In this document: one piece after another, positions 8,985 through 35,943 of the stretch
How positions within the stretch are numbered: the first letter of the stretch is position 1
How the letters are laid out: every line of letters begins with the position of its first letter
Assembly (NCBI GenBank): GCA_022448265.1
Contig: JAKVCC010000011.1
Span: 62,001 to 126,000 of the forward strand
Direction of reading: 5' to 3'
DNA length: 64,000 nucleotides
From: Pirellulales bacterium
Lineage (GTDB): Bacteria; Planctomycetota; Planctomycetia; Pirellulales; Lacipirellulaceae
Notes under the pieces: model-generated
Databases searched by the model: none
What the model saw: only the letters and a program-made list of their open reading frames with translations
Told to the model about the DNA's origin: nothing
Made by a program: the position numbers and the translations under genes

Positions 8985-10565
8985 CTACTTCCACTGGTCG
9001 GTGCGGAAAGGGGAAGCTGGCAATCCTTCCTTATTATACAAGTTAGCGCCGGCTGGGTTCATCGAATACGCGTAGCGAACTGCTACGGGAGCCTTCACAT
9101 CCGGCGAGGAAACAACGACCGTTCCACCATCGATGACCGCTATGGCCCAAGACCACTTTTTGTCACTACCGGCAATAGCAAACCGAGCGAGCTCTCCCTC
9201 AGAGTCCTCCTGAGTCGGTGCAAGGCCCGCCTTTTGTCCCACCATCAAGCCACTGCCCACATGGTCAAAACGAAGGCGAATCTTATCACCCTCGACTTCG
9301 AACGCCCGATACAACGGCCCGCTCGGCACAATTGCTTGCCCGTGAACATCACGCAGCGCCCAACGAGCCAGCCGAGCTCCCACGTCTTGCTTGTTGCGAG
9401 GATGAACATCCCCAGCGGTGCCAATATCCGTAATGACCGCCATGCCCGTGTGAGGGATCTCTAACGCCTTAAACTGTGCTTGGCGAGTCGGAGACCAACC
9501 GTCGCCACCCGCTGGATCGTTGGTAGGTTGCAGGTAATCAGCAAGCTGCACAAAGTAAAAATAGAGTGGAAAATCGCCCTGTTTCCAAACCTGTCGCCAG
9601 CCGCCGATCAGCGCTTGCATCTTATGGAAATATTCTACGCCCTCACCCCCGTTAGACTCGCCCTGGTACCAAATAGCCCCCCGGATACCGTAGGGTATCA
9701 GTGGCTGCACCATCGAATTGTAAATTGCAGTGGGATCACCTCCGCTAGTAAAACCGGGCACTGGCACAGGCTTGGGAGGAACCCTACTCGCTCGGACCGC
9801 CTTGCGTGCAGCGGTCGTCCACGCTTCGACATTGGTTAAATACGTTTCCCACACAGCTCTTCCGACGGGAACTGTCGGGTCGAATTGATCGACCTTGTTC
9901 GCTAGCTCTTTAAGCTCGGCAACAGTGCGAAAACCAATTGGCGGAGTCCAAGGTTCAATGCGAGTTCCTCCCCAATTTGTGCCAATCAATCCGACCGGAA
10001 CACTCGTCTCGCTCAACAACTGCCGCCCAAAGTAATATCCTACTGCTGAAAAAGTACCAACCGTCTCAGGCGCACAGACTTGCCACGCCCCCGCGCCTCG
10101 CGACTGTGGAAGCGCGGCGGTCGTGTGACCGGGAACGTCAAACAGCCGAATCCCGGGGTGATCAGCGGACTCGATTTCCTGTTTGCCGTTGAGCGACTGA
10201 AGAACCTGCCATTCCATGTTGGACTGCCCGGAACAAATCCACACGTCACCAACAAGAACGTCTTCTAAAACAATTTTATTCTCTCCTTCTACCTCTAGAT
10301 TGATTCCTACATCTCGTGCGTCCAGCGGATTCAACTTGACGCTCCACGTACCCAAGTCGTTGGCGGTGGTCCGTACTACTTGGCCAGCAAAACGAACTGT
10401 GACTTTTTCGCCAGCGACCGCCCATCCCCACACTGGCACACTCAGGTCGCGCTGCAAAACCATATGACTGGAGAAGACATTGGGCAGCTCCACCTCTGCC
10501 AACAAGGGTGTGTATAACAAGAAATTGGCACAAACAACAAGCGCACGAGCAATCGACATGGGCAT
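8985..10565 (-). CDS. Sialate O-acetylesterase-like SGNH hydrolase, secreted
   Basis: About 526 residues from the ATG at 10565, which has GGAG 9 bases upstream; a GTG at 10580 and an ATG at 10559 are alternatives. A signal peptide (SIARALVVCANFLLYTPLLA) precedes a beta-sandwich (FSSHMVLQRDLSVPVWGWA) and then the esterase core: GQSNMEW with catalytic Ser115, IWYQGESNGG, and a GDVHPRNKQDVG block carrying the Asp-x-His pair. The family removes O-acetyl groups from sialic acids or acetylated xylans. The sialic-acid-like biosynthetic cluster 3.4 kb away makes a sialic link tempting, but planctomycetes carry many such esterases for plant and algal glycans, so the substrate is open. Confidence 0.9.
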   Translation of the reverse strand: MPMSIARALVVCANFLLYTPLLAEVELPNVFSSHMVLQRDLSVPVWGWAVAGEKVTVRFAGQVVRTTANDLGTWSVKLNPLDARDVGINLEVEGENKIVLEDVLVGDVWICSGQSNMEWQVLQSLNGKQEIESADHPGIRLFDVPGHTTAALPQSRGAGAWQVCAPETVGTFSAVGYYFGRQLLSETSVPVGLIGTNWGGTRIEPWTPPIGFRTVAELKELANKVDQFDPTVPVGRAVWETYLTNVEAWTTAARKAVRASRVPPKPVPVPGFTSGGDPTAIYNSMVQPLIPYGIRGAIWYQGESNGGEGVEYFHKMQALIGGWRQVWKQGDFPLYFYFVQLADYLQPTNDPAGGDGWSPTRQAQFKALEIPHTGMAVITDIGTAGDVHPRNKQDVGARLARWALRDVHGQAIVPSGPLYRAFEVEGDKIRLRFDHVGSGLMVGQKAGLAPTQEDSEGELARFAIAGSDKKWSWAIAVIDGGTVVVSSPDVKAPVAVRYAYSMNPAGANLYNKEGLPASPFRTDQWK

Positions 10566-10697
10566 CTGTAAATACTCCACTCTAGATTTGTAGTTAGGTA
10601 GCTCGTTCTAGCACAGAAGACACTAGAGATTATTGACACCAGGCAAGCACTATTACAAGTCCCCGGAGGACGCCCTACTGTGCATCCGCGTGTTGGT

Positions 10698-12860
10698 TTA
10701 TTTGCTTGGCTCCCGGTAAGGAAGGCCCTGCTGGTAGAGCAGCACCCGCGCGCGGACTTCCCCAGCCAACTTCGTGTCTCCAGCGGCTGTCGCCAAGTCA
10801 ATTGCCTGCGCGGCAGTTGTGATTGCCATGTCAAACTGGCCCGCCTCCGCGTAAGCGGCCGCCAACGTGTCCAATGGCGTGGCCGCTTGATGAGCGGTTA
10901 AGTGACAGCTTCGCTTGGCCAGCTCAACAGCCTGCGCGCCATCGCGCAAGGCGTCTTCGGGACAGCTTGCCCGGACCCGGGCCAGATTGTTTAGCGCCAG
11001 CGGAAGATCTGGGTCCAGATCTAGCGCATGGGCGTAGCGAAGAGCCGCCGCCGGAATGTCTCCTTGCATGTGAATCGCCAAACCAAGATTGAGGTGCGCG
11101 TCAACGTACTCCGGCTCAATCTGCAGGGCTCGATGATAATGCTGAATCGCAGCAGTAAGCTTTCCCTGCCTCGCCAGAGCATCGCCCAGGAAGTTGTGGG
11201 CCCTGGCGAAATCTGGTTTGAGCTTCACTGCTCGCTGGAAATGCTCGACCGCTTGCGCGAGTTTCCCCTGTTTCCGTAGGGCGTCGCCCAAGTTGCTGTG
11301 GGCCTTCGCATAGTCAGGCTTGACCCGCAGGGCATGCTGAAAATGCTTTACCGCCTCCTCAATTTTCCCCCGCCCATACAAGGCAACGCCCAGGTTGCTG
11401 TGGGCCTCCGCATGGTCAGGATCGATCCCTAGGGCTTGGTAATAATGTCCAACAGCGTCTTCTACCTTCCCTTGCCTATGCAGGGCCACGCCCAGGTTGG
11501 TGTGTGCCAGGCTGTTGTCGCTGGTGACGGCCAGGGCGTGTTCGTACAAACTCACGTTGTCTCGCCATACACCCACTTGCCGCCAGCTTACCGGCAGCAG
11601 TCCCAGCAGGACCAGCGCCACCACACCAATTCCCGCCGACCGTAGGGACGAGCGCTGCTCGAACAAGTGGGCGAGCGCCCAGGCCAGGGCCATGTAGATG
11701 CCCAATAGGGGAACGTAGGCGTGATGGTCGGTCATCGACTTGAAACCGCCCATTTTCAATACACCAATCACTGGCACCAAGGTCCCCAAAAACCACAGCC
11801 AGCCCACAACCAAGTACCCTCGCCGTCGAGCGAAATAAATAGCGGTAATTGTAAGCGCAATCAATAACACCACTGCGCCGGCTACCTGCGGGCCATAAAA
11901 AGTTCTGGGCATAGGGTAGATGGGCGACAGGTTTACTGGCCACAGCATATTGCGAAGGTAGAGCACATAACTTAGCACCGCATTGGACAACCGCGCTGCC
12001 ATCGGCTGGGACTCAAGCGAAACGATCGCGCCCAATGCCTGCTGGCACAAGTACGACAGCCAGATCGAAACGCCTGTAAGTGCAAATAGCGGCGCCTTCT
12101 CCAGCAGTAACCAGCCCACACTACGCTTGTCGAGGGGAGACGGAGAAAAACCGATTAGTTCGCGAGGCTCCGCGCTCCAGGTCCCCAGATTCATTCTTCC
12201 CAACGGCCAGTAGTCCAGCAGCAGCAACACGCAGGGCAACGTCATCAGCATGGGCTTGGCCATCAGTCCCAACGCAAAGAAAAGCAGCACCAGCCCATAG
12301 CGCCAAGGTCCGCCTCGGCGGGCATAGGCGGCATAAGCAATCATCACCAGCGCCCAAAAGAACGTGCACAAAGGATCGCGGAGGTGGGATACCCAGGCCG
12401 CAGATTCGACAGAAATCGGGTGTAGTGCAAAAAGCGCCGCCACCAGCACGCTGGGCCAAAAGTCATCGGTGAGCCGCCAAAACGCCGTCAGTAGTGCAAG
12501 GGCCGCCGCCACGTGCAGCAGCACGCTCACTAGGTGGTGCGCCCCTGCGTCTAGCCCAAACAGCTCGCACACCAACTGATGGACCCACCAACTCAGCGGA
12601 TGCCAGTGGCCGGGGCCATGAATGCCCAGCGACCATACAAAGTTGTCCCATGTCAGCCCGCCGACAACGTGAGCGTTTTCGCTGACAAACGTATCGTCGT
12701 CGTAACTAACAAATTCGAATCCATGTACCTGCGCGTATACCGCCAGCACAGCTGCGGCCAGCCCAGTGGCGACCAGCCAGATGCGTAGGCGACTCCTTGA
12801 GGCGGCCACTGCCGAACTACCAGCCACACGTTGCGGATTCTTGTGCTTGCGGTTGCTCAC
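10698..12860 (-). CDS. TMTC-like polytopic membrane protein with C-terminal TPR repeats
   Basis: A 720-residue protein read from a GTG at 12860. Residues ~25-410 form roughly ten membrane segments with the hallmark of the TMTC/GT-C type N-terminus (FVSYDDDTFVSENAHV) and LFALHPISVESAAWVSHLRDP. Residues ~425-690 hold about seven tetratricopeptide repeats, each near NLGVALxxxGKxxxAxxHYxxAL. In eukaryotes, TMTC proteins are O-mannosyltransferases; bacterial proteins of this architecture are common in Planctomycetes and not biochemically assigned. The repeats are also visible as ~102-base DNA periodicity between about 11050 and 11520. A related broken TPR fragment lies directly upstream and its stop overlaps this GTG by one base. 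Confidence 0.85.
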   Translation of the reverse strand: MSNRKHKNPQRVAGSSAVAASRSRLRIWLVATGLAAAVLAVYAQVHGFEFVSYDDDTFVSENAHVVGGLTWDNFVWSLGIHGPGHWHPLSWWVHQLVCELFGLDAGAHHLVSVLLHVAAALALLTAFWRLTDDFWPSVLVAALFALHPISVESAAWVSHLRDPLCTFFWALVMIAYAAYARRGGPWRYGLVLLFFALGLMAKPMLMTLPCVLLLLDYWPLGRMNLGTWSAEPRELIGFSPSPLDKRSVGWLLLEKAPLFALTGVSIWLSYLCQQALGAIVSLESQPMAARLSNAVLSYVLYLRNMLWPVNLSPIYPMPRTFYGPQVAGAVVLLIALTITAIYFARRRGYLVVGWLWFLGTLVPVIGVLKMGGFKSMTDHHAYVPLLGIYMALAWALAHLFEQRSSLRSAGIGVVALVLLGLLPVSWRQVGVWRDNVSLYEHALAVTSDNSLAHTNLGVALHRQGKVEDAVGHYYQALGIDPDHAEAHSNLGVALYGRGKIEEAVKHFQHALRVKPDYAKAHSNLGDALRKQGKLAQAVEHFQRAVKLKPDFARAHNFLGDALARQGKLTAAIQHYHRALQIEPEYVDAHLNLGLAIHMQGDIPAAALRYAHALDLDPDLPLALNNLARVRASCPEDALRDGAQAVELAKRSCHLTAHQAATPLDTLAAAYAEAGQFDMAITTAAQAIDLATAAGDTKLAGEVRARVLLYQQGLPYREPSK

Positions 12861-13075
12861 TAAGGCTGCCTACTCCCTGGTCCCGGACGAGCCAAATTGG
12901 CGCGCGCGGCAGAAGAATCAGGATTAATTTTTAAGGCCCTCCGATAGTGGTCGTTGGCTTCTAAGGTGTTCCCCTGAAGCTCCAAGGCAACGCCCAGGTT
13001 GTAGTGCGCGTTTGCGCAATCAGGCTTGATCTATACGGCGAGGTGATAATGCTTGGCCGCTTCCACAAACTTCTC
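12860..13075 (-). pseudogene. Remnant of a TPR-repeat gene
   Basis: Reading the minus strand gives KFVEAAKHYHLAV, an in-frame TAG at 13031-13033, then IKPDCANAHYNLGVALELQG and a second repeat ending in RRALKINPDSSA, finishing at a TAG that overlaps the GTG of the next gene. An in-frame TAA lies just upstream, so no start is available. Two TPR units with an internal stop indicate a decayed tail of a duplicated TPR protein related to the downstream membrane/TPR gene. Confidence 0.7.
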
Positions 13076-13713
13076 TTACCCTAACATGATCCTGTTTTTC
13101 GTACCCGACTTGGTAAGAGAATCAAAGGTTAAGGAGTCCACTGTTCTTCTGGAATACGGCCGTAGGCTCCGGAAAAAACAAGAACAGCGTGCGGCGAACG
13201 TCGCGAGGGTGTGGGAATCTAATGAACTATGGTAGCTGCGGTGCTTGTAGTCAAGTCGCCAGGGGCAGCAAGTCTGCTGGTTGATCTACAGACGTTTGCA
13301 AGTCCTGGGTATCTTTTTCCTTGCCAGCTCGACGCAACACTAGACGGTAGCCAAGAGCTATAAGAGTAGCGTGTTTTTCCTCTGGCAGTGGCTAAGTATA
13401 AACATACCTTCGGTAAAAAAACTTGTACCAATGAGCAGATGGATCAGAACCGCTAGGCAACACGGCTCGGGAAAAAACCCCTTCCATTTGGAATAACAGA
13501 ATGCCGTCTGAAAAAAATCCTTAGCGATCCTAGCATTAAAGAACCCTTGGCCCGGCAGGCACGGTGCACAGAAATAATCATTAACGAATACTCTAAAGAC
13601 ACTCTAACCCATATTTCCCATTTAACCCGGTACTTTTTGGCGTGCGATTTGCGGCATGCCCTTGATAAATAGTGTCCTGGTCGCTCAACATGCCATAGTG
13701 ACAGGGGAACCCA
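13076..13713. other. Gene-poor stretch of about 640 bp
   Basis: Neither strand shows a recognisable protein, RNA or repeat. A 60-codon frame at 13053-13235 on the plus strand has no family features and is probably chance. Base composition is more AT-rich than the surroundings, as expected of decaying DNA between two pseudogene fragments. Confidence 0.5.
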
Positions 13714-13943
13714 ATGGGTGACCGCAAAAATCGGGATTTTCGGGTTCGATTAGACCGCCGTCTGAAGCTAGAAGTTCCCGGCCAGCAAGGTTACTACCAA
13801 CGCTGACCGTTTAGCTTAACCAGAAGCTTGGCGAGCCATTCGGCCTGACCGAGATGGGCAACAAACTGCTGACAGCTTCACGCCTCGGCAGCAACAAGCA
13901 ACACAAGCTAGCGCCGCCGCTACGTCAGGCAATCTACATCTAA
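13714..13943 (+). mobile_element. Frameshifted 5' fragment of a transposase, probably IS1380 family
   Basis: The first frame from the ATG at 13714 reads MGDRKNRDFRVRLDRRLKLE and stops at 13804. A second frame from about 13824 reads KLGEPFGLTEMGNKLL then SRLGSNKQHKLAPPLRQAIY and stops at 13941. Joined, these match the N-terminal pattern I know for IS1380-type transposases (basic start, a GLTE helix, then LLRQAIY before GYEDVNDAE). The frameshift and the missing 3' four fifths show an inactive remnant. It ends 15 bases before the nonulosonate gene cluster. Confidence 0.6.
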
Positions 13944-13958
13944 GACAGGTAGAAAAAT

Positions 13959-14828
13959 ATGGGTACGACAAATATAGGTGGAGTAGAAGTTGGGCCTGGC
14001 TTCCCGTCCTATGTGATCGCAGAAATTGGGATCAATCACAACGGAAGCATGGAGCTGGCCAAACAGCTGATCGACGCAGCGCGATTTGCCGGCTGTAACG
14101 CGGTTAAATTTCAAAAGCGAACTATTGATGTGGTGTATTCCGCAGAGGAACTCGCCCGCCCCCGCGAGAGTCCGTTTGGCACAACCAACGGCGACCTCAA
14201 AAACGGCCTTGAGTTTAGCCAACAGCAGTACGCTGAAATAGATGCCTATTGCAAATCAAATGGAATTGTATGGTTTGCCTCCTGTTGGGATGAGGGAGCC
14301 GTTGATTTTATCGATGCCTTCGACCCTCCATGCTACAAAATTGCCTCGGCCAGCATTACCGACGACAAACTTCTGCGCCATCATCGCGCAACGGACCGCC
14401 CAATAATTATCTCAACTGGCATGAGCTCGTTGAACCAAATTGACCATGCGGTTCAAGTCCTAGGCAAGGAAAACTTACTCATTCTTCACTGCACGAGTAC
14501 GTACCCATCTGCTCTTGAAGAGCTGAACCTAATGGCTATCCGTGAATTGGCTGCTCGTTACGACGTACCCGTTGGATACAGTGGCCACGAAGTCGGTCTT
14601 TCAACAACTGTTGCCGCTTCTGTACTCGGTGCCTGCATCCTCGAAAGACACATTACCCTCGACCGATCCATGTGGGGAAGTGATCAGGCTGCTTCGGTCG
14701 AACCTTACGGCATGTTCCGTCTCGTTAAGGATATCAGGGCCATCGAGGTTGCGCTTGGCGATGGACAGAAAGTAGTATACGAAAGTGAACTTCCGATTAT
14801 TGAGAAGCTTCGCCGGGTCGGCAGATGA
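13959..14828 (+). CDS. N-acetylneuraminate synthase family protein (NeuB-like, no SAF domain)
   Basis: A 289-residue NeuB-type TIM barrel that would condense phosphoenolpyruvate with an aldose to give a nonulosonic acid. Family motifs are clear: YVIAEIGINHNGSMELAKQLI, AVKFQKR, WFASCWDEGAVDFI, KIASASI, IISTGMSS, LHCTSTYP, VGYSGHEVG and the ERHITLDRSMWGSDQAASVEP block. Typical NeuB, LegI and PseI proteins are about 330-350 residues because of a C-terminal SAF (antifreeze-like) domain that caps the active site of the neighbouring subunit; here the protein ends after the barrel. It opens a run of six overlapping or closely spaced genes; the next ATG overlaps its stop. Confidence 0.88.
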   Translation: MGTTNIGGVEVGPGFPSYVIAEIGINHNGSMELAKQLIDAARFAGCNAVKFQKRTIDVVYSAEELARPRESPFGTTNGDLKNGLEFSQQQYAEIDAYCKSNGIVWFASCWDEGAVDFIDAFDPPCYKIASASITDDKLLRHHRATDRPIIISTGMSSLNQIDHAVQVLGKENLLILHCTSTYPSALEELNLMAIRELAARYDVPVGYSGHEVGLSTTVAASVLGACILERHITLDRSMWGSDQAASVEPYGMFRLVKDIRAIEVALGDGQKVVYESELPIIEKLRRVGR

Positions 14829-15652
14829 ACTCCCTTTCAATCATGCAAGGACGGCTCTCCCCACCCCCTTCTCACAGAATTCAGGCCTTTCCCTGGAATA
14901 GCTGGGAACGGGAGTTTGAGTTTGCTGCGCAGATCGGCTACGACGGCATCGAATGGCTATTCGAGGCTGAACACTACCAGAAGAATCCCATCTGGACCTC
15001 AGAGGGACGTGGCCGGATGAAGGAGTTGTCAGAAGCGACTGGTGTGCGCGTGACAACTCTATGTGCTGATTATTTTATGGTTCATCCTTTCTATCGGATT
15101 GACGAAAAAATCCGTTTGAATAACATCGCGCTGCTAACGCAGCTGCTTTGCTTCGCTGCCGAAGTGGGCGTAAAGAGCATTCTTCTTCCAGTATTGGAAG
15201 AAGCTGAAGTTCGAAATGAAGACGAAAAGAAAGCATTAATCGACAGCCTCCAAGAGCCTCTAGCGGCAGCGGCTTCCTGCGGGGTACGACTGGGGTTGGA
15301 GACCGAGTTGCCCGGCGAGGAGTACTTAGAGCTGGTTTCCCGTGGCGAGGGCCTGGGAGTCTACTACGACACAGGCAACAGCAGGGCTAAGGGATTTGAC
15401 AACGTATCGGACATAAGGCTGCTTGGGGCCCACGCTTGCGGGATTCACATCAAGGATCGCGTGGTCGGAGGCGACACGACATTTCTTGGACAAGGCGACT
15501 GTAATTACCCTACCTTCTTTCAGGAGCTGGCAGCACAAAGATATGCCGGTCCTGTCACCTTGCAGGCGGCCTTCAACGCCGATTTTATAGATGTCGCGCA
15601 GCGGCATCATGATTACATTCGCCGAGTGATGCAACGCGCAGGTTTAGGGTAG
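14825..15652 (+). CDS. Sugar phosphate isomerase/epimerase-like TIM barrel in the nonulosonate cluster
   Basis: A 275-residue AP endonuclease 2-type barrel starting in a 4-base ATGA overlap with the NeuB-like gene. It opens SIMQGRLSPPPSHRIQAFPW and has GYDGIEWLFEAEHY, GLETELPG (Glu ligand), VYYDTGNS (Asp ligand) and GIHIKDRV (His ligand). Where relatives have a final metal-binding Glu (compare TIEAF in the isomerase at 7229-8077) this protein reads TLQAAF, a Glu-to-Gln change, so metal binding may differ. Proteins of this type are often found next to NeuB and Gfo/Idh genes in surface-sugar clusters; the substrate is unknown, presumably the aldose or ulosonate handled by the cluster. Confidence 0.82.
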   Translation: MNSLSIMQGRLSPPPSHRIQAFPWNSWEREFEFAAQIGYDGIEWLFEAEHYQKNPIWTSEGRGRMKELSEATGVRVTTLCADYFMVHPFYRIDEKIRLNNIALLTQLLCFAAEVGVKSILLPVLEEAEVRNEDEKKALIDSLQEPLAAAASCGVRLGLETELPGEEYLELVSRGEGLGVYYDTGNSRAKGFDNVSDIRLLGAHACGIHIKDRVVGGDTTFLGQGDCNYPTFFQELAAQRYAGPVTLQAAFNADFIDVAQRHHDYIRRVMQRAGLG

Positions 15653-15671
15653 CAGGAAGACAATAACTCTC

Positions 15672-16712
15672 ATGAAAATATTAATAATAGGACTGGGCGG
15701 GATCGGCCAGCGGCATACCAGAAACATTCGAGCTCTTCTGGGCGACAATGTAGAGATTATTGCCTATCGTACACGAGGGCTATCTCACGTGGTAACTCCC
15801 ACCCTGGGTATCGAGGACGGCGCTCATGTTGAAACGCGCTACAATCTAAAAGTCTTTACGGATCTGGATAAGGCACTCGCTGAAAAACCCAACGTCGCTT
15901 TTATATGCAATCCAAGCAGTTGTCATGTTGAGGTTGCCCGCAAAGCAGCAGCTGCTTCTTGCGACCTATTCATTGAAAAGCCGGTTTCACACACTTTGGA
16001 AGGGCTAAATGATTTGGCCCAGGTCGTGGGCAAGCAAAGCCTCGTGACTTTTGTCGCCTACCAGCTTCGCTACAACCCCGGCGTCCGTTATTTGAAGTCT
16101 TTGCTGGAGAGCGGTAAGCTCGGAAACATCTTGGCAGTGAATGCCGAGGTCGGTGAACATCTGCCAAGCTGGCATAAGTACGAAGATTACCGGATTATGT
16201 ATGCTTCACGGAAAAACCTTGGCGGCGGGGTGATTTTGTCGCAAATTCATGAAATGGATTTCCTGTATCATTTCTTTGGGTTGCCAGTGAGCATCTATGC
16301 GGTGGGTGGTCATTTGAGTGAGTTGGAAGTTGATGTCGAAGACACAGCCAGCATACTCATGAAAGTAAACTGGGAGGGAAGGCCTATCCCAATTCACATC
16401 CATCAAGACTACCTGCAGCAACCTCCGCGACGAACATGCAGGATCATAGGTGATGCGGGAAAAGCGGAGTTGGATTTTCACGCCGGAACAGTAGTGGTTC
16501 ACGGAACGGACGGAAAGGTAGCAGACAAGTTGGATTTTAGTGACATGCAGCGCAACGACATGTTTATGAACGAACTGAAACATTTCTTTGACTGCGTGGC
16601 GAGCCGCGAAACAACGCAAATTCCACTTGAGGCAGGCGTTGCCAGTCTGCGAATGGCGTTGGCAGCGAAGGAGTCACTGGAGACAGGCCAACCCGTGGAG
16701 TTGACCCCTTGA
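15672..16712 (+). CDS. Gfo/Idh/MocA family sugar dehydrogenase
   Basis: A 346-residue NAD(P)-dependent oxidoreductase. The Rossmann motif IIGLGGIGQRHTRNI is at the N-terminus, the conserved Lys is K103 in EKPVSH, and the second domain opens with QLRYNPGVRYLKSLLESGKLG and carries GGVILSQIHEMDFLYHFFG. AGGAAG lies about 12 bases before the ATG. It sits in the nonulosonate operon, 19 bp after the TIM-barrel gene, and overlaps the next gene by 4 bases. A role in oxidising or epimerising the sugar precursor, or tailoring the ulosonate, is inferred from position. Confidence 0.88.
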   Translation: MKILIIGLGGIGQRHTRNIRALLGDNVEIIAYRTRGLSHVVTPTLGIEDGAHVETRYNLKVFTDLDKALAEKPNVAFICNPSSCHVEVARKAAAASCDLFIEKPVSHTLEGLNDLAQVVGKQSLVTFVAYQLRYNPGVRYLKSLLESGKLGNILAVNAEVGEHLPSWHKYEDYRIMYASRKNLGGGVILSQIHEMDFLYHFFGLPVSIYAVGGHLSELEVDVEDTASILMKVNWEGRPIPIHIHQDYLQQPPRRTCRIIGDAGKAELDFHAGTVVVHGTDGKVADKLDFSDMQRNDMFMNELKHFFDCVASRETTQIPLEAGVASLRMALAAKESLETGQPVELTP

Positions 16713-17476
16713 GTACTGCCCGTCCAAACGAAGTCCTGGCACTGATTCCCGCCAGGGGAGGATCCAAAGCCATCCCCAGGAAGAATCTGCTGGAAATTGC
16801 TGGAAAACCGCTGCTTGCATATTCTATCGAGCAAGCGCTGGAATGTGATCTTGTGACGCGCACTATTGTCTCCACCGATGACGAAGAAATCGCAGATGTG
16901 GCCAGACAATTTGGTGCCGAGGTTCCATTTATCAGGCCGTCGGAATTCGCAGGAGACCTGTCGCCTGATTTCGACGTATTTTTACACGCTCTCCAGTGGC
17001 TTCGTGATCAAAACCAGTACCTGTGTGAAATGGTGCTCCATCTTCGCCCGACAGGGCCCGTACGTCGCCCATCCCTGATAAAAAAGGCGATACAGATGAT
17101 GCTGGACCAACCCGAGGCCGATGCGCTCCGCTCCGTCAGCCCCGCCATGCAAACCCCCTATAAAATGTGGGAGCTCGAGGATGGGCTGTTGAAGCAGCTG
17201 CTAGACGTCGAGGAGATGGCTGAGCCCTACTGCCAGCCGCGACAAGTCCTTCCGCAGGTGTACTGGCAGAACGGGTATATTGATATCGTTCGTTCTCGAG
17301 CCATTCTTGAACAAGGCTTGATGTGTGGCCGCCGGATAATCCCCTTGATTGTAAACGATCCCGTTCACGAGCTTGATTACGTAGACGACGTTCCTGCGTT
17401 GGAAGAAGCTGTGCAGAAAATGCAGCAAGGTGAGTTTCCCCAGCAGCAAGATACGAAGCCGCGCCATTCTGTGTGA
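16709..17476 (+). CDS. Acylneuraminate cytidylyltransferase family protein (NeuA-like)
   Basis: A 255-residue CMP-nonulosonate synthetase-like enzyme that would activate the ulosonic acid with CTP. The nucleotide-binding signature IPARGGSKAIPRKN spans residues 13-26 with Arg16 and Lys20 intact, followed by IAGKPLLAYSIEQAL, VSTDDEEIADVA and LRPTGPVRRP. Translation starts at a TTG overlapping the TGA of the previous gene. This is the catalytically complete cytidylyltransferase of the cluster; compare the degenerate paralogue at 18315. It overlaps the next gene by 4 bases (GTGA). Confidence 0.9.
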   Translation: MSTARPNEVLALIPARGGSKAIPRKNLLEIAGKPLLAYSIEQALECDLVTRTIVSTDDEEIADVARQFGAEVPFIRPSEFAGDLSPDFDVFLHALQWLRDQNQYLCEMVLHLRPTGPVRRPSLIKKAIQMMLDQPEADALRSVSPAMQTPYKMWELEDGLLKQLLDVEEMAEPYCQPRQVLPQVYWQNGYIDIVRSRAILEQGLMCGRRIIPLIVNDPVHELDYVDDVPALEEAVQKMQQGEFPQQQDTKPRHSV

Positions 17477-18321
17477 GCCGTCCGATGATGTCGAAGTCCA
17501 TCTCCGAACAATTTAACCTGAGAGGACGTGTTGCCGTAATTACCGGCGGCGCGGGATTATTGGGCGTTCAGCACGCCTCAGCCATCGCGGAGGCCGGCGG
17601 GGTGCCTGTTTTGGCTGACATCGATGGCGACACGGCCAAGGATCGCGCAAATAAAATTTCAGCTGCCTTTGGAGTTCAAGCAATTGGATGTGCCGTTGAT
17701 ATCACCAGCGAGGAAAGCGTTTGCGGGCTACTTCGACATGTTTGCGAACTGCATCCGCGCATTCATGTGCTTATTAACAATGCAGCGAACAATCCGAAAA
17801 TGGAGTCGCACACGGATGTCGAATTCAGCCGACTGGAAAATTTTCCGCTTGGCCAATGGGAGAAGGACCTGCAGGTTGGCTTAACCGGAAGCTTTATCTG
17901 CAGCAAGTTCATTGGGAACCACATGGCCCAAAGCGGCGGAGGCGCAATCATCAATATTGCTTCGGACCTCGGAACCATAGCGCCGGATCAGCGATTGTAT
18001 CGTAAAGATGGAGTGGCCGACGAGGACCAGCCTGTAAAACCGGTGACGTACTCTGTGGTGAAAGCCGGTTTGATTGGTCTCACCAAGTATCTTTCGACGT
18101 ACTGGCCAGAGAAAGGGGTCCGCGCAAACTCCTTTTCTCCCGGAGGTGTATTTAACGGGCAGTCGCCTGAATTTGTCGAGAAACTGGGGCAGCTAATACC
18201 TATGGGGCGGATGGCAGCAATTGACGAGTACCGGGCTGCAATTGTATTCCTCAGTTCCGATGCATCCTCGTATATGAATGGGAGCGATCTGGCAATGGAC
18301 GGGGGCAGGACGGCATGGTAG
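17473..18321 (+). CDS. SDR family oxidoreductase
   Basis: A 282-residue classical short-chain dehydrogenase starting at a GTG that overlaps the preceding stop. The cofactor motif TGGAGLLG is at residues 24-31, NNAAN marks the NAD-binding core, the catalytic Ser lies in NIASD, and the Tyr193-x3-Lys197 pair sits in TYSVVKAG; the tail ends with MDGGRTAW. All catalytic residues are present, so it should be active. In this operon it probably reduces or oxidises a hydroxyl of the sugar intermediate. It overlaps the next gene by 7 bases. Confidence 0.9.
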   Translation: MSRPMMSKSISEQFNLRGRVAVITGGAGLLGVQHASAIAEAGGVPVLADIDGDTAKDRANKISAAFGVQAIGCAVDITSEESVCGLLRHVCELHPRIHVLINNAANNPKMESHTDVEFSRLENFPLGQWEKDLQVGLTGSFICSKFIGNHMAQSGGGAIINIASDLGTIAPDQRLYRKDGVADEDQPVKPVTYSVVKAGLIGLTKYLSTYWPEKGVRANSFSPGGVFNGQSPEFVEKLGQLIPMGRMAAIDEYRAAIVFLSSDASSYMNGSDLAMDGGRTAW

Positions 18322-19550
18322 ATCGACCGCAAGTGGTTCTCGGTATCGTAGAGGACTGTTATGCATCTACGGGACTGCCAAGGGAAAACGTTTGGCAACT
18401 GGGTGGCCATCCCCTGATCGCCTTTGGCGTCGCCAGCGCCATGGCCGCCAAATCCATCGATCGGGTGATCGTATCTACCGCCAACAAGCGCGTGGCGGAG
18501 AGCGCCTGCGCCTACGGTGCCGAAGCGCCCTTTCTTTTGCCCGCTGAGCTGGCCACGAACACTACGCCCGACCTCTTGCGGTTTCAGCACATGCTCTCCT
18601 GGCTGCAGGATCATGAAGGCTACCAACCGTCGATTGTCGTCCAGATCCGGACTACCACCCCGTTTCGCCCCCGCGGATTTCTCGATTCTGCCATTGCCCT
18701 TTTGCAAGCCGACGCGAAGACCGATTCCGTCCTAGCCGTCGCCCATCCCAAACAGGCCCCTTCGGCAATGTGGACCCGGGACGAAAAGGATTACCTCCGC
18801 CCGCTCCTAGAAAGGGGACGCGCGGAGCCCGATAGCCAGCCTGGCCCGCTAGCCTTATGGCAATCGGGGCACGCAGACGTCGTTCGCACCAATACAATTT
18901 TAAAGAAAGGGTCGCTCACGGGTGACTATGTGAAGTCGGTGTTCGTGGATCCGTCCTTTGTTGTAAACATCGACCGGTCGGAGGACCTGCACTGCGCTGA
19001 AACCCTGCTCGGAACATGCGCCCTCAACATCGACCTGCCGGAGCGCTCGAACCCCCAGTCGGTACCACTACCCGCGCGTACCCGTTTGGTCGTCCTAGAT
19101 TTCGATGGAACCCTCACCGACGATCGCGTTTGGGTGGATTCCGAAGGCCGTGAGTCCGTAGCCTGCAGCCGTAGCGACGGGTTGGGCCTGGAGATGCTCC
19201 GCAAGGCCGGGATTGAGGCGTGCGTGCTTTCTAAAGAGGCAAACCCTGTCGTAGCCCGCCGATGCGAAAAACTGCGTATTGCTTGTACACAGGGAATCGA
19301 CGACAAGGTAGGGGCGCTGCGAGAAATCATGGCTAAGCGCGACATCGAGGCTCGGGAAGTCGTATATGTGGGTAACGACGTTATCGACATCGACTGCATG
19401 CGTCTGGTGGGGTTTTCATTTGCCCCGGCCGATGCGCACCCTAGCGTCAAACAACAAACTGACTGCATCCTGTCGCGCGCGGGCGGGAGAGGAGCTGTTC
19501 GCGAGGTTTGTGAAATACTGCTCGCCAACTTGCAATTGCAGTCAGAATAA
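18315..19550 (+). CDS. CMAS-like fusion: degenerate cytidylyltransferase domain plus KdsC-type HAD phosphatase
   Basis: A 411-residue protein with the order seen in animal CMP-sialate synthetase: nucleotidyltransferase fold (~1-235) followed by a KdsC-like HAD domain (~255-400). In the first half, the place of the ARGGSKGIPxKN signature reads DCYASTGLPREN (residues 14-25), so the key Arg and both Lys are lost, although the rest of the fold (HPLIAFGVASAMA, VSTANKRVAESA, QIRTTTPFRP) is recognisable. The second half has all HAD motifs: DFDGT at 262-266, Ser306-Lys307, Lys331 and GND at 353-355. It is therefore more likely a phosphatase, for example on an ulosonate 8- or 9-phosphate, with a structural or substrate-binding N-terminal domain. 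Last gene of the plus-strand operon. Confidence 0.82.
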   Translation: MVDRPQVVLGIVEDCYASTGLPRENVWQLGGHPLIAFGVASAMAAKSIDRVIVSTANKRVAESACAYGAEAPFLLPAELATNTTPDLLRFQHMLSWLQDHEGYQPSIVVQIRTTTPFRPRGFLDSAIALLQADAKTDSVLAVAHPKQAPSAMWTRDEKDYLRPLLERGRAEPDSQPGPLALWQSGHADVVRTNTILKKGSLTGDYVKSVFVDPSFVVNIDRSEDLHCAETLLGTCALNIDLPERSNPQSVPLPARTRLVVLDFDGTLTDDRVWVDSEGRESVACSRSDGLGLEMLRKAGIEACVLSKEANPVVARRCEKLRIACTQGIDDKVGALREIMAKRDIEAREVVYVGNDVIDIDCMRLVGFSFAPADAHPSVKQQTDCILSRAGGRGAVREVCEILLANLQLQSE

Positions 19551-19696: not shown

Positions 19697-20695
19697 TCAG
19701 TCACCTGCGGAAGCGGCCGGTTCTCCGAATATAGATTTGAAGTAGGACCGCAGAAATGGGAGAGCTGCCAGCGCCGGCAGTACTGATCGCGAAATGGCTA
19801 AAATCCCGACTGCTGCGGCCAGTTCGGGCGCCATGTACGCCGCGAAAAGGTAAACAATTGCGGCATCCCGCGTGCCAATACCGCCCAGTGTAAATGGAAC
19901 AAGCCCGGCGATCAGCACGACGGGAGTGAGCGCGAGGCTTGCCAAAAAGGGAACCTGGGCTCCCACGGCCAGCGTAAACATCCATATCTGAGTGAGGTGA
20001 AGGAACCAGAGTCCCAGGGAAAACAGCACCAGCCAATGGGAGCGCCGCCCCAACGCGGAGTGCAGATCTGGCCACCCCTCAACCAGCAAGGTGAGCTTCG
20101 CCCTTTTTCTGAACAGGTTCAGCCCCTGGACCTTTTCGAGCAAAAGTTTTGACGTGCCGCCCGAGAGGAGGAGCCCGCCGCTCAAAAGCCACAGACCCAA
20201 AGCCGGCGGCGCAACCGCGTCGATGCGGACCGCCGCCAAGCCCGACAACCATCCCAGCAGACACCAAGAAGCGACGGCGAAGGCATCGCACACACGCTCG
20301 TAAACTACGACCGACACCGCAACACCAACTGAATTGCCGTGCTTTGCGTAGAGAAAATGGCTTTTGGCAAGATCACCCAGTTTGGCTGGCAAAAAAAGAT
20401 TGAGCGCGTTGGCAATCACTGTCAGTGCAAACGCATCGGTCCAGCCTGGATCGGTCCTCAACGATGCCACCCAGCGAAACCGGATAGCGCCCAGTATCGT
20501 GATCGGGACAATCATTCCCACCGAGAGCACCAGCCACATCACATCCGCCGATGCAAACACCTTCACGATGGCGCCGAAATTGAGCTTCCGGTAGACCAGC
20601 CAGAGAATGGCCGCACTCACGACCACGCTCAGAAGTTTCATCGGAACCTTGCTGCGAACCAGGCCCCACAGATCTGTGGATAGGAGTTGCTTCAC
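19697..20695 (-). CDS. UPF0104 / lysylphosphatidylglycerol synthase transmembrane-like protein (flippase-like)
   Basis: A 332-residue integral membrane protein with about eight hydrophobic segments. Family markers are FLPAKLGDLAKSHFLYAKHG and the later VPFTLGGIGTRDAAIVYLF, typical of the UPF0104 group that includes the membrane half of MprF. It begins at a GTG inside a 4-base GTGA overlap with the upstream glycosyltransferase-like gene, so the two are co-translated. Proteins of this group often neighbour glycosyltransferases and are suspected of moving lipid-linked substrates. It converges on the nonulosonate operon with 146 bp between the stops, and no clear terminator was found there. Confidence 0.85.
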   Translation of the reverse strand: MKQLLSTDLWGLVRSKVPMKLLSVVVSAAILWLVYRKLNFGAIVKVFASADVMWLVLSVGMIVPITILGAIRFRWVASLRTDPGWTDAFALTVIANALNLFLPAKLGDLAKSHFLYAKHGNSVGVAVSVVVYERVCDAFAVASWCLLGWLSGLAAVRIDAVAPPALGLWLLSGGLLLSGGTSKLLLEKVQGLNLFRKRAKLTLLVEGWPDLHSALGRRSHWLVLFSLGLWFLHLTQIWMFTLAVGAQVPFLASLALTPVVLIAGLVPFTLGGIGTRDAAIVYLFAAYMAPELAAAVGILAISRSVLPALAALPFLRSYFKSIFGEPAASAGD

Positions 20696-22017
20696 GATTC
20701 ACTTTGAGAAGGGTTACTGGTCAACACCCGTTGGATCTCTTCCCGGGCCTTTTCTTCCAGAAGGGCCGGAGAATTTAAATACGCCGCGTCGTAGTTTCGA
20801 AAACGTTGGGCCCAGTCTTGCGAGAAAAACTCCGCCAGCCCATCCATGGAAACCTCGCTTAAGGAGGTAACCGGGGGCGGAATTACCCGGCTCACAACAA
20901 AACCATAGATATCCGATCGGCTCTCAGGCAGAACCGTAAACTCCCGCATCGCGACCGTTGGTACGCCCGCCTTGAGTACGCCCAAATGCACGTTGCTGTT
21001 CTCGTCGGCGATAATCCAATCACACTGACAGGCAACTTCTTGTAACAGCTGGCCCGAATCCGTTTCGATCACTCCGCTCATATCCCCGAGCTCGGACGCC
21101 AGCTTGGAGGGCCCCAGCATGCTAGGGTGCCACCTGACTAAAATTCGCTCCGGCGTAAAGAGTCGTCGACAGTCAGCAATAAGGCGCGTGAACTGTGGCC
21201 AAACAATGACCTTCGGAGCGAAAACACCAACTGTGGGCCTTTTCTTGTGCAGCGTTTCCACGCGCATTGGCTTTGACTCACCTTCGCCTCCGCAAAAAAT
21301 AACACGGCCGCTGACCGGCCCCTTTTTCTCGTAACTCTTCAACGCCGCCTCTCCGTCAAGAACCGAAAGCGTATATCGCAGTCTGGGCGAAACTGCGGTG
21401 GGATACGCATGCGAGATGAAAATCGACGGTATCCCAACCGCGGTTGCAGCGCGTGCAAACGCCAGCGGCTCCGGGTTTGAGTCGCTTGACACAATCACGC
21501 CAGACGGCTCTATGCGGCTAAGGATTTCCCGGGCCCGCACATAACAGCACACTGCAATGGCGGATCGGCAAGCAACGAGGAAATCATGGTCCCGGTTCAA
21601 GCGGCCTACGATGCGGTAAAACCGGGGCAGTTTCTGAAAGTTGCCCAATACCCTCAGCAGCCGGGCAAAGGTACCCGGCGAAAGTAGCTGCCGGGATCCA
21701 AGTCGCAACCACGCCACCGACTCGGACCCTATCCAGGAGCTGACCTTCCGAGCTCGCTTCCGCGCGTTTTCGTGAACCGCAACAATGAGGGCCCGCTTGG
21801 GCTCTCGCGCGGATGGCGCCAGTGTGATGTACGACTTGCCGGCAAAAAGAAAAATCAAAATGGTAGAGAGATGCGACTGTCCCAGATAGCGATGAATATG
21901 CCAAACCAGCTTCACGACAGGGCCCGTATTGCGAAGGTGCCGGAACAAGGCTTGGCGAACCGGATCGGAATCAGCGTGCACCACTTCCTGTACAGTTCTA
22001 AGCAGCTCAATTTTCAT
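20692..22017 (-). CDS. Putative glycosyltransferase with GT-B-like C-terminal half
   Basis: A 441-residue cytosolic protein from the ATG at 22017; a longer frame to 22227 adds an unlikely Cys/Arg-rich leader. I do not recognise the exact family. The C-terminal half looks like GT-B enzymes of the CDP-glycerol/polysialyltransferase kind: an RWHPS motif at ~295-299 (His297-Pro298), a DSGQLLQEVACQCDWIIADENSN region near 340, and LKAGVPTVAMREF after it. Bacterial sialyltransferase families share an HP motif and a later Ser/Thr motif, so it is a candidate transferase for the CMP-ulosonate made next door, but this rests on short motifs. It is translationally coupled to the flippase-like gene. The N-terminal 130 residues give no clue. 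Confidence 0.6.
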   Translation of the reverse strand: MKIELLRTVQEVVHADSDPVRQALFRHLRNTGPVVKLVWHIHRYLGQSHLSTILIFLFAGKSYITLAPSAREPKRALIVAVHENARKRARKVSSWIGSESVAWLRLGSRQLLSPGTFARLLRVLGNFQKLPRFYRIVGRLNRDHDFLVACRSAIAVCCYVRAREILSRIEPSGVIVSSDSNPEPLAFARAATAVGIPSIFISHAYPTAVSPRLRYTLSVLDGEAALKSYEKKGPVSGRVIFCGGEGESKPMRVETLHKKRPTVGVFAPKVIVWPQFTRLIADCRRLFTPERILVRWHPSMLGPSKLASELGDMSGVIETDSGQLLQEVACQCDWIIADENSNVHLGVLKAGVPTVAMREFTVLPESRSDIYGFVVSRVIPPPVTSLSEVSMDGLAEFFSQDWAQRFRNYDAAYLNSPALLEEKAREEIQRVLTSNPSQSES

Positions 22018-30031: not shown

Positions 30032-33000
30032 TCAGTTCGACGCCCCAGGCGCAGTATCCCCGTCGGCCGGCGCGGTGCGGAGCAAGGCGATCAGGTCAGC
30101 CAGTTCCTGCGGCTCTAGCGTCTTTTCGAGCCCTTCGGGCATGAGCGACAGGCTGGAATTCTGCAGGAATTCAATCTGGGCGCGAGCTAGTGTCTTGATG
30201 CTGCCGTCTTCCAGCTTGATCGTGACGCTGTTCGACGTTTCTGCGGTTAGCAGACCCGATACAATCATTCCAGACTCCAATTGACAATTGTAGCGCTGGT
30301 AACCCGGGTTGATCTCCGCATTCGGATCGAGAATGCTGCCCAGCAACTTCTCGGGCGGATGATTGACGACCGTCGCCAGATTGGGACCAATTTCCGCGCC
30401 TGCCGAACCACGCCGGTGGCAGGTGCCGCATTTCCCTTTGACATAGGCTGCTTTTCCCCGCTCTGGGTCCGCAGCCAATTCCAGGCAGCTTCGATACTCA
30501 GCGATTACTGCCGCACGCGTAACACTCCCTGTCGAGTCGAAAACGCTGGCAGCCCGCCCGGCAATGGCCTCCGACGGATGGCGCAGCAGGCGATCACGAC
30601 GCGCGGGGTCGATCATGCCGCTAGTGATACTACCGTTTTCGATCCGATTGAGCAGGTCTTCGGTCCAACGGTTGCGCGACAGCCAAAGATTGAGTGCCTG
30701 CTCGCGGAGTGCCGGGCTGAAGGATTCCCATGCCTCGCCTAGCACTTCGGGCACCTGGTCGGCACCACTGCGGTTTAGCGATTCTAAGACGGTCTTCTGT
30801 AGTTCGGGCTCTATCTGCGGTCGAAGCCACATCGACAGACTCTCGAACGCCGCGCTGCGATAGGCGGGTATCCTGCCCAAGAGCGCAGCGGCCGCTATGC
30901 GCTCACTCGAGGAGCGATCTTCATCCTCAGCAGTATGCTTGACCACTTCAAAGAGTTTTTCCGCGTCGGCTAGAACCGCGGTCATGGCTGGAACGACCGG
31001 CTCGGCGGCAAGCTGTTCCCAGGACGTTCCTGCTTGCTCAAGTACACTGATCAGGCTGTCGAAGTCTCGCATAGCCAAAGCCGGCCGCTTGGCCAAGGCA
31101 GCGGCAAATATCTGGGCAGTCGCCGCAACCTCTTTCGTCCCTAAAGCCAACCGCAGCAACGGTTCCCGATAAGTATCGACGACGGTTTGCTCAGCGCGCA
31201 AGATGGCGGGAGTTAGCGCAGAAGCATAAGGCAACGCAGAACTCATGACGGCCGCAACCAGCAGTGGCTCGGCGGCACCGCTGACCGCGATTTGTGCGAG
31301 CGCCCCGGCCGCCGCGTCGCTGGCTGGCCACTCGCCCAAGCTCAGGGCCAACTGGAGCCGCACCTTGGCATCGGGATCATTAGCCAACCGCACAGCGGCC
31401 GCGACAACTTTGGCATCGGTTCCCCAAGCCTCGGAGATGCGTAGCGCGTTTTCCTTGACCCCAGCGGTGGGGTCGGCCAGGGCTGTGCACAATAATTCAC
31501 TCGTGAGCCCTTCGGTGCAGTCGAGCGTACAGAGTGCCTGCACACGAGTCTGAGGCCGGGGATTCGAGCGGACAAGCTGTTCAAGTGGCGGGGTGGCGGC
31601 GGCATCTGCCTTCCACAGCAATAGTTGCTGCGCCTTGTCGCGCTGCCAATCGTTGGGCGAGTCGAGTGCGGCAACCAGACCTGCCGTGCCGACCTTGTCG
31701 AGCCGCACGGGTTTACGCGGCGCTGCCCCCTCGGCCACCACGCGGTAGATTCTGCCGCGATACTCTCCCAGGCGGTAATGGGGCAGCAGCTCGGCTCTGC
31801 CTTCGGCAGGCAGCCAGGCCGGATGCTCAATCATGTAGCGATACATATCGGCGATCCATAGTGCGCCGTCCGGCCCCGTACGAGACATCACGGGTCGGCA
31901 CCAGCGATCTTCGCTGGCAAAGAAGTCGCGATCCTCTTCCCCCGGCGCGCGATGCGCAACATAGCTCACCCCCACATCCTTGATCACATTGTGCTGCACT
32001 AGGTTGTGGAAGGGTTCGCAGGTAAATGCATGCTGCGGGGGGCCATCGACAAACAACAGATTGTCGTTATAAATCATGCCGCCGCAGGCGGAGGTAAAAT
32101 GTCCTGCCTCCTTAAAAGAGTGAAACCGTTTTTGCAGTGAACTTGCCGGATAGATTCGCGCTAGCCAGCTGTCTGGGCTAATGACTCTCTGGGTAGGCGG
32201 GGGCATAGGCACGTAAGGATTCCGCGATGAATAGCGATCCGCCAGTACATAGTGCCACAGAGGCATGACGTTCTGCGTACCAAACCAATGTCCCCAAGCG
32301 TCGCGATTGCGGCCAAACTGGGTTGGCCCCGATTCCGGCTCCACCGCACCCGAATCGGGATGAAAACGAAAGTCGCGGCTACCCAGCTCAAGTTTGACTC
32401 CCGAGCGCGTCGATTCGATGCGTGTCCCGACACCATGGTCCGGATGATGCCCGCCGCCGGCGCAGTAGACCCACCCGTCGAGCCCCCAACGTAAACCGTT
32501 GACCCGCAACTGCTGATTGCCTTCAGAAAAACCTTGAATCAGCACCTCGGTGCTATCGGCCTTGCCATCGCCGTCGGTGTCGCGCAAAAACAAAATCTCC
32601 GGGGCGGCGGTTACCAGCACACCGTCGCGCCAGGTGAGAATGCCGTTCGGAAAGTTCAAATCCGAAGCGAACAGGCGACTTGTCTCGAAATGGCCATCGC
32701 GGTCGCGGTCCTCAAGTACGCGAATCCGTCCTCCACCCTTGCCCTTTCCGTCAGTTCCGAGCGGATAATCGGCCATTTCGACCACCCACAAGCGGCCGCT
32801 GGGGTCCCAGTCGAAGGCTACCGGATCGAGAACCTGCGGTTCGCAGGCGGCCAGCTCCAACCGATAGCCAGCGGGCACATGGTTTTTTTTCAGTGCTACG
32901 ATCGGAGAAACTGGGTGACTCTCCGGCGGGGCAGCGGCCACACGGTTAGCAACCGGTGGCGTGGCGGGCTTGCCCGCGGCAAGGCCAGAGGCGGCATGCA

Positions 33001-35776: not shown

Positions 35777-35943
35777 GGCCGCCTTCCATTGATTGTAGAG
35801 TTGTGCATCACCAAACACCCTTTGCTTCAAAAACTTTGAGGCAATTAAGTGTCGAGTGCGTTACCCATCCTTGGTACTGGCATGACTTTCACCGTAGCCA
35901 GCGGTCATAAGTCGAAAGACATCACTAACGCAAGTGTGTGGTA

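Follow-up and report, generated by a model that had tools for sequence, protein, structure and literature searches.

Pseudaminic (Pse) and legionaminic (Leg) acids are made by many bacteria and, to our knowledge, few of the enzymes that attach these nonulosonates (NulOs) to glycans are known. The locus described here carries a gene for a glycosyltransferase-like protein opposite a NulO biosynthesis operon, which raises the questions of whether this gene encodes such an enzyme and where its donor would come from.

A gene pair opposite a NulO operon

The window, i.e. the whole stretch of 64,000 nucleotides that was analysed, contains on its minus strand the gene P0001, whose product alone matched no model in Pfam or NCBIfam. 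The frame runs from an ATG at 22017 to a TGA at 20692 and encodes 441 amino acids. An in-frame TTG upstream of the ATG would allow an extension to 511 amino acids; the alignments of the relatives begin at about the ATG. The stop codon of P0001 and the GTG start codon of a flippase-like gene overlap in a GTGA, bearing out the translational coupling to a UPF0104 gene proposed by the first-pass annotation, and the partner matched both PF03706 and TIGR00374 above cut-off. The same annotation had placed P0001 against a nonulosonate operon and, indeed, both genes are convergent with six plus-strand genes (13959-19550), 1.1 kb away from P0001. The features were the following:

20692..22017, minus strand: P0001, predicted GT-B glycosyltransferase, probable CMP-NulO transferase (open reading frame, alignment, model and tree)
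19697..20695, minus strand: UPF0104/PF03706 flippase-like membrane protein (PF03706, E 7.5e-35; TIGR00374, 64.8 bits, cut-off 43.2)
13959..14828, plus strand: NeuB-like synthase of 289 amino acids (PF03102, 257 bits; NeuB domain only in Pfam, without the usual C-terminal SAF domain)
14825..15652, plus strand: xylose-isomerase-like TIM-barrel protein (PF01261, E 1.5e-26)
15672..16712, plus strand: Gfo/Idh/MocA oxidoreductase (Pfam)
16709..17476, plus strand: CMP-NulO synthetase-like cytidylyltransferase (PF02348, E 1.8e-24; TIGR03584 PseF, 138 bits, below the cut-off of 205.7)
17473..18321, plus strand: short-chain dehydrogenase (SDR; Pfam)
18315..19550, plus strand: cytidylyltransferase fused to a KdsC/KDN-9-P-phosphatase-like HAD part (TIGR01670, 120.9 bits, cut-off 106.95; NF058599, 99.6 bits, cut-off 180)

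The HAD part of the last protein suggests that the pathway of this operon may pass through a phosphorylated intermediate.

A rare family linked to NulO loci

As judged by sequence comparison, P0001 and its remote relatives make up a rare family that no model in Pfam or NCBIfam, the two libraries used, describes. Within a set of 59 related genomes the gene was present in two, the one relative among the 58 others being that of genome G003 (26% identity, E 6e-18); at the genus level it was found in 2 of 14 genomes, and a strong NeuB in 3 of 14. A profile search of the order of P0001 yielded matches in 6 of 396 genomes, three of them at strong E-values, including its own genome and G1317. Searches of the class of G539 and at phylum level each returned three genomes (G539, G626 and Sinorhizobium saheli out of 337; G743, G791 and G626 out of 398), and G626 was the only positive among four genomes of its order. 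Members also occurred in seven Sinorhizobium/Ensifer plasmid records as well as in S. saheli. An earlier two-sequence profile had found only P0001's own genome among 246 of the phylum, pattern scans of genome and viral contigs with P0001 alone gave no relative, and none of the phages searched matched. The family is thus rare, and its members are scattered.

A tree of 16 rows was built from the C-terminal parts only, after removal of the first 130 amino acids from the family rows and of 130-300 amino acids from the others. P0001 paired with the G003 protein (82/87), and this pair fell inside a clade of proteins from Pse/Leg loci, with G539, G626, G743 and the rhizobial type (98/96). The G791 and G1317 proteins joined this clade (93/88), while the six wider-superfamily proteins used fell apart from it. 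The weak matches of the order search (G1136, E 4.8e-5; G1033, 7.1e-4; G050, 8.5e-5) lay outside the clade and were treated as wider superfamily instead of family members.

We then examined the neighbourhoods in 11 genomes or replicons: P0001's own genome (G000), G003, NGR234, Rm41, E. adhaerens, S. saheli, G539, G626, G743, G791 and G1317. The one-by-one examination covered these 11, and four further plasmid records with the rhizobial protein were left out of it. In nine of the 11, the transferase gene lay between 16 bp and 11.4 kb from a NulO gene, mostly one for Pse. The 11 loci are not independent of one another, as three come from close Sinorhizobium/Ensifer relatives. In G003 and S. saheli it was near a contig end, with NeuB on another contig. 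NCBIfam models for Pse or for NeuB/NeuC were matched above cut-off in the G743, G791, G626, G1317 and E. adhaerens loci; in that of G539, PseB and PseC passed and PseI was narrowly under (329 vs 340). For loci without an NCBIfam check, Pse gene names come from reading of the sequences.

The linkage also held at the level of whole genomes. NeuB was present in all nine genomes searched, namely the eight whole genomes with a strong member plus G050, which has a weak match only. Across the order, a strong NeuB (E<=1e-20) was seen in 99 of 396 genomes, as picked by eye from the results table, vs the transferase in three. All three genomes with a strong transferase had NeuB (chance 0.015), as did all six when the weak matches were included (2e-4), both figures ignoring the kinship of the genomes. 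Similarly, a PseI-like gene was found in 84 plasmid records, and the P0001-type N-terminal domain of a 1024-amino-acid rhizobial protein in seven, six of which are among the 30 of the 84 PseI matches that were listed (the seventh is NZ_CP021802.1). Since records positive for PseI or NeuB far outnumber those positive for the transferase, most NulO makers would use something else and the family would serve only some of them. According to the first-pass annotation, a conserved pairing of the transferase with the flippase gene in genomes lacking NulO genes would have spoken against a NulO role; no such pairing was found, as only G003 also has the transferase gene among the 59 genomes, and a search for the flippase in G003 gave no match at E<=0.001.

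Conserved motifs, predicted fold and known transferases

The HP motif (H297-P298) and the DENSN stretch (338-342) read by the first-pass annotation are both present in P0001. The presence of an HP dipeptide carries no weight by itself, because chance alone predicts 0.67 of them at this amino acid composition and about half of such proteins would carry one; what exceeds chance is the conservation of the [RK]xHP column. This was seen in alignment A7, which comprises P0001 and seven relatives (8 rows) that are 17-25% identical to it:

21124..21135, minus strand: R295-W-H297-P298, predicted (K/R)XHP CMP-binding motif ([RK]xHP at the same column in 8/8 rows)
20992..21006, minus strand: D338-E-N-S-N342, candidate phosphate-binding turn (N340 in 7/8 rows, S/T341 in 8/8)
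21409..21411, minus strand: H203, invariant His and, by inference, candidate general base (8/8 rows)

Asp369 and Gly372 were also invariant, and the Ser/Thr at position 341 stood 44 residues after H297 (P0001 numbering) in every row. P0001 deviated at position 342, with an Asn (N342) in place of the Ser or Gly of the seven relatives, and in a one-residue insertion (E339). In sialyl- and Kdo transferases, (K/R)XHP is reported to bind CMP (PMC12887879). According to the same source, the CMP phosphate in the Kdo transferase KrkA is contacted by His227, from the HP motif, and by Ser271/Ser272, and the cytosine by Pro228; the spacing from His227 to Ser271 is likewise 44.

Structure prediction, suggested earlier as a check for two Rossmann-like domains, yielded a GT-B fold. 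The model, made from eight sequences (pLDDT 83.2, pTM 0.84), matched the UDP-GlcNAc 2-epimerase 4nes (Z 17.9, rmsd 4.7, 291 residues aligned), MurG 1nlm (Z 16.4, rmsd 4.4, 298 aligned) and TarL 8va1 (Z 15.2, rmsd 5.2, 315 aligned). The fold matches listed were GT-B-type enzymes, the strongest of which bind UDP rather than CMP; Bcs3, whose structure is reported with CMP, ranked 15th in Foldseek. No sialyltransferase or Kdo transferase appeared among the 50 fold matches listed, which by itself excludes nothing, and comparison with a viral fold library brought in mainly generic glycosyltransferases. The confident fold, together with the uninterrupted 441-codon frame, the conserved motif set and the coupling to the flippase gene, speaks against P0001 being degenerate or inactive, a reading to which its rarity in the genus (2/14) might lead and which we consider most improbable.

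P0001 alone gave nothing below E 0.9 against PDB chains (the sole match, at 0.92, was chance), and the A7 profile matched, at E<=0.01, Bcs3 (1.5e-4) and WbbB chains (0.003) only. The matched region covers the HP motif and the N-S turn, extending over 65-70 residues in WbbB, for which 8csb is reported as a structure with CMP-Kdo. KpsC and KrkA were unmatched by this profile among the PDB sequences, and an earlier profile (A5) produced chance-like matches only (E 0.39 and up), with no CMP enzymes. Since A5 found none and the more even A7 found Bcs3 and WbbB, this result depends on the alignment.

These observations bear on whether P0001 might be a GT-B enzyme that adds some other sugar, activated by UDP, GDP or dTDP, to the NulO-containing glycan, the HP motif being an old feature of the wider superfamily. 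Profile comparison (A8) linked the P0001 family to general HP-type transferases (probability 99.1, E 2e-18), and the best folds bind UDP. Moreover, since glycan genes tend to lie together, the product of a neighbouring gene may attach a different sugar. A precedent is SpsB of Bacillus subtilis, which lies beside a Leg operon, has HP and DEG motifs and is reported to be dispensable for Leg transfer (PMC7439481). However, all solved enzymes that the profile matched at E<=0.01 bind CMP, and the wider-superfamily proteins used in the tree stayed outside the clade. We regard this reading as rather unlikely.

Bcs3 being the best sequence match, and TarL a fold match over 315 residues, P0001 might instead resemble the CDP-alditol phosphotransferases (TagF/TarL/Bcs3-CroT type), which would move glycerol- or ribitol-phosphate and release CMP. 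These enzymes share the GT-B fold and HP region with P0001 and, in Bcs3, the CMP-binding domain, but theirs is phosphotransfer. The comparison with CDP-glycerol transferase profiles that the first-pass annotation had proposed came out negative, with no match to PF04464 (TagF/TagB type) listed at E<=10 in a Pfam scan where the HMMER filters remove most matches above 0.1. The nearby cytidylyltransferases matched NulO/Kdo-type models and none was of the TagD type, and family members adjoin pse, leg or neu genes, which makes a phosphotransferase improbable.

Bacterial sialyltransferases of GT38, GT52 and GT80 have (K/R)XHP in common with P0001 (RWHP, 295-298), and the GT-B fold predicted for P0001 is reported as shown for GT80 and predicted for GT38 (PMC2169525). 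In contrast, the D/E-D/E-G motif, which is reported to be shared by the sialyltransferases of GT38, GT52 and PF05855 and to be indispensable for one polysialyltransferase (PMC2169525), was absent from P0001 and stood upstream of HP in just 2 of the 8 A7 rows, at unrelated places, and no Pfam sialyltransferase model was listed for P0001 at E<=10. The retaining Kdo transferases WbbB (GT99), KpsC (GT107) and KrkA (GT140) have a C-terminal CMP-binding domain with an HP motif, as predicted in P0001, with a Ser in KrkA where the P0001 motif has K/R. Their nucleophile motif QXXXD, which in KrkA lies 34 residues before HP (PMC12887879), was absent from P0001 and had no common site in the 8 A7 rows; no match to PF05159 (Capsule_synth) was listed at E<=10. 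Lacking both D/E-D/E-G and QXXXD, P0001 was filed with neither group.

Two reported Pse transferases were also compared. KpsS1 (GT118) of Acinetobacter baumannii, described as retaining (PMC12887879), belongs to an HP-type superfamily like P0001 and uses the Pse donor expected in the P0001 family, but it is related to KpsS; hhalign of the P0001 family against rhizobial proteins read as KpsS-like gave a probability of 3.8. GtfS of Tannerella forsythia (445 amino acids), compared here by its published description only, resembles P0001 in size, NulO locus and GT-B type, and differs in its reported TagB domain and DXD motif (PMC6388019, PMC6120980). Other NulO transferases reported are FlmG (PMC7591256) and the Maf proteins. 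A search of titles and beginnings of abstracts, with most subscription journals outside its range, found no paper giving the P0001 family or its rhizobial member a NulO transferase role.

Altogether, the GT-B prediction, the CMP-binding motif in its place and the family linkage to NulO loci make a CMP-NulO transferase the best-supported reading, and P0001 is probably such an enzyme, of an unnamed family and serving a NulO-containing surface glycan; the donor and the activity are inferred. Thus, the earlier proposal that P0001 transfers a CMP-activated product is retained, while membership of a sialyltransferase family is dropped. A cytoplasmic, probably membrane-associated P0001 would take a nonulosonate similar to Pse, Leg or Kdn from its CMP ester and pass it to an acceptor that is either lipid-linked or a polysaccharide. 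The UPF0104 protein of the coupled gene would in turn assist in moving or anchoring the product. For CMP binding, the C-terminal Rossmann domain would use R295-x-H297-P298 together with the N340-S341 turn. A one-step inverting reaction, with H203 as candidate base, seems the more likely because the QXXXD nucleophile of the retaining Kdo transferases is missing. The family poses the question of which residues replace the known catalytic motifs.

Donor source and the rhizobial relatives

A second NulO locus of P0001's own genome lies on contig C2 and comprises a canonical NeuB (454.5 bits, cut-off 399.65), a LegB-like protein just under cut-off (463.2 bits, cut-off 475), an N-acetyl sugar amidotransferase and genes read from their sequences as HisH/HisF-like. 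This locus is partly common to G003, where NeuA-, PtmE- and LegB-like proteins are 64-81% identical. Adjacency favours the window operon as the donor source. Within the preferred reading of a true NulO transferase, we see it as possible, though not likely, that P0001 is fed by the C2 locus of NeuB/LegB type instead. The canonical NeuB and near-cut-off LegB-like protein of C2 are consistent with this, as is G003, the second of the two genomes in the genus that have the transferase, which shares the locus and whose one NeuB is canonical. Against it, P0001 is so near the window operon, and C2 has Capsule_synth-like transferases of its own.

Loci with a short NeuB like that of the window were also compared: ten, chosen by eye, were fetched and the eleventh was that of G050, four of the 11 contigs being just 4-7 kb long. 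The short NeuB stood beside a NeuA-HAD match in 8 of the 11, two of these short NeuBs being pieces of 173 or 205 amino acids. None of the 11 had a strong P0001-family member and two had weak superfamily transferases, so the idea of a P0001-type transferase as fixed partner of the short-NeuB operon was rejected. Given these loci and the second, canonical NeuB locus, the window operon is best taken as a candidate donor source. As a separate observation, the weak transferase match of G050 sits in the same locus as its short NeuB operon.

The P0001 family includes the N-terminal ~460 amino acids of the 1024-amino-acid protein of Sinorhizobium rkp-3 K-antigen loci, at 19-20% identity to P0001. We take this protein to be, probably, RkpY. 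Its locus makes pseudaminic acid and, unlike P0001, the protein is fused to a GT-D-like domain. In Rm41, the rkp-3 K antigen is reported to be a GlcA-Pse disaccharide repeat, and the S. fredii HH103 capsule a homopolymer of a Pse derivative (PMC4881576); HH103 was absent from the 8 rows returned when the plasmid collection was searched for the 1024-amino-acid protein. The pairing of two transferase domains with a repeat of two sugars would fit a polymerase whose P0001-type domain adds Pse. With a definition that combines sequence, predicted fold and locus, the family offers concrete NulO transferase candidates; for the Pse-GlcA K antigen, the candidate would be the rkp-3 protein. Tentatively, and with considerable doubt, we propose a more specific picture: an unnamed family of inverting CMP-NulO transferases, with (K/R)XHP and without D/E-D/E-G or QXXXD, that would include the rkp-3 N-terminal domain, and that in this genome, planctomycete-like as read from its genes, would use the product of the SAF-less NeuB pathway, of 9-phosphate type, and give a NulO glycolipid with the help of the flippase. 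In the proteins of NGR234, S. saheli and G743, the P0001-type domain is fused to a GT-D-like domain that matched PF22882 above cut-off.

A different membrane partner for the glycosyltransferase in another genome of the genus

L003:8500-10239, membrane-protein-like frame of 579 aa in G003, the other genome of the genus that carries a relative of the glycosyltransferase P0001

The P0001 relative of G003 overlaps this frame, which had no Pfam match, by 17 bp; the coupling of the glycosyltransferase with a membrane protein therefore recurs, with a different partner.

Nonulosonate (NulO) loci

13959-14828 of the window, short NeuB-like gene
L069, G539 contig C9:5000-24999, pseudaminic locus (frames singled out: 14566-16065 and 12194-13816)
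L038, G000 contig C2:17000-36900, second NulO locus of the window's own genome; L039, its counterpart in G003

Among 11 loci from the taxonomic order that were selected for short NeuB frames, 8 had a cytidylyltransferase-HAD match beside a short NeuB-like gene (G050, G1025, G1236, G1003, G1065, G1060, G1178 and G1034). Judged by length, the short NeuB-like proteins lack the SAF domain, with Pfam as the basis for the window protein only. Loci with this pairing may represent a separate NulO pathway of the 9-phosphate type. Inspection of L069 by eye revealed an apparent PseG-acetyltransferase fusion and one protein combining cytidylyltransferase-like and aldo-keto reductase-like parts. The second NulO locus contained NeuB, LegB-like, PtmE-like, WbuX-type amidotransferase and Capsule_synth-like transferase genes, as well as HisH/HisF-like genes assigned by reading of the sequences, and its product is perhaps amidino-legionaminic acid.

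Other genes of the window

8985-10580, carbohydrate esterase with a SASA domain (PF03629, whose name is sialic acid-specific acetylesterase)
10698-12860, polytopic membrane protein of 720 aa with TPR repeats at its C-terminus
30032-35830, frame of 1932 aa that combines a ceramidase-like N-terminus with matches to laminin-G, DUF7133, HEAT and cytochrome c

Since the PF03629 domain is broad, the esterase is perhaps unrelated to the NulO operon of the window. The two are separated by 3.4 kb. The 720-aa protein resembles TPR-bearing GT-C transferases.
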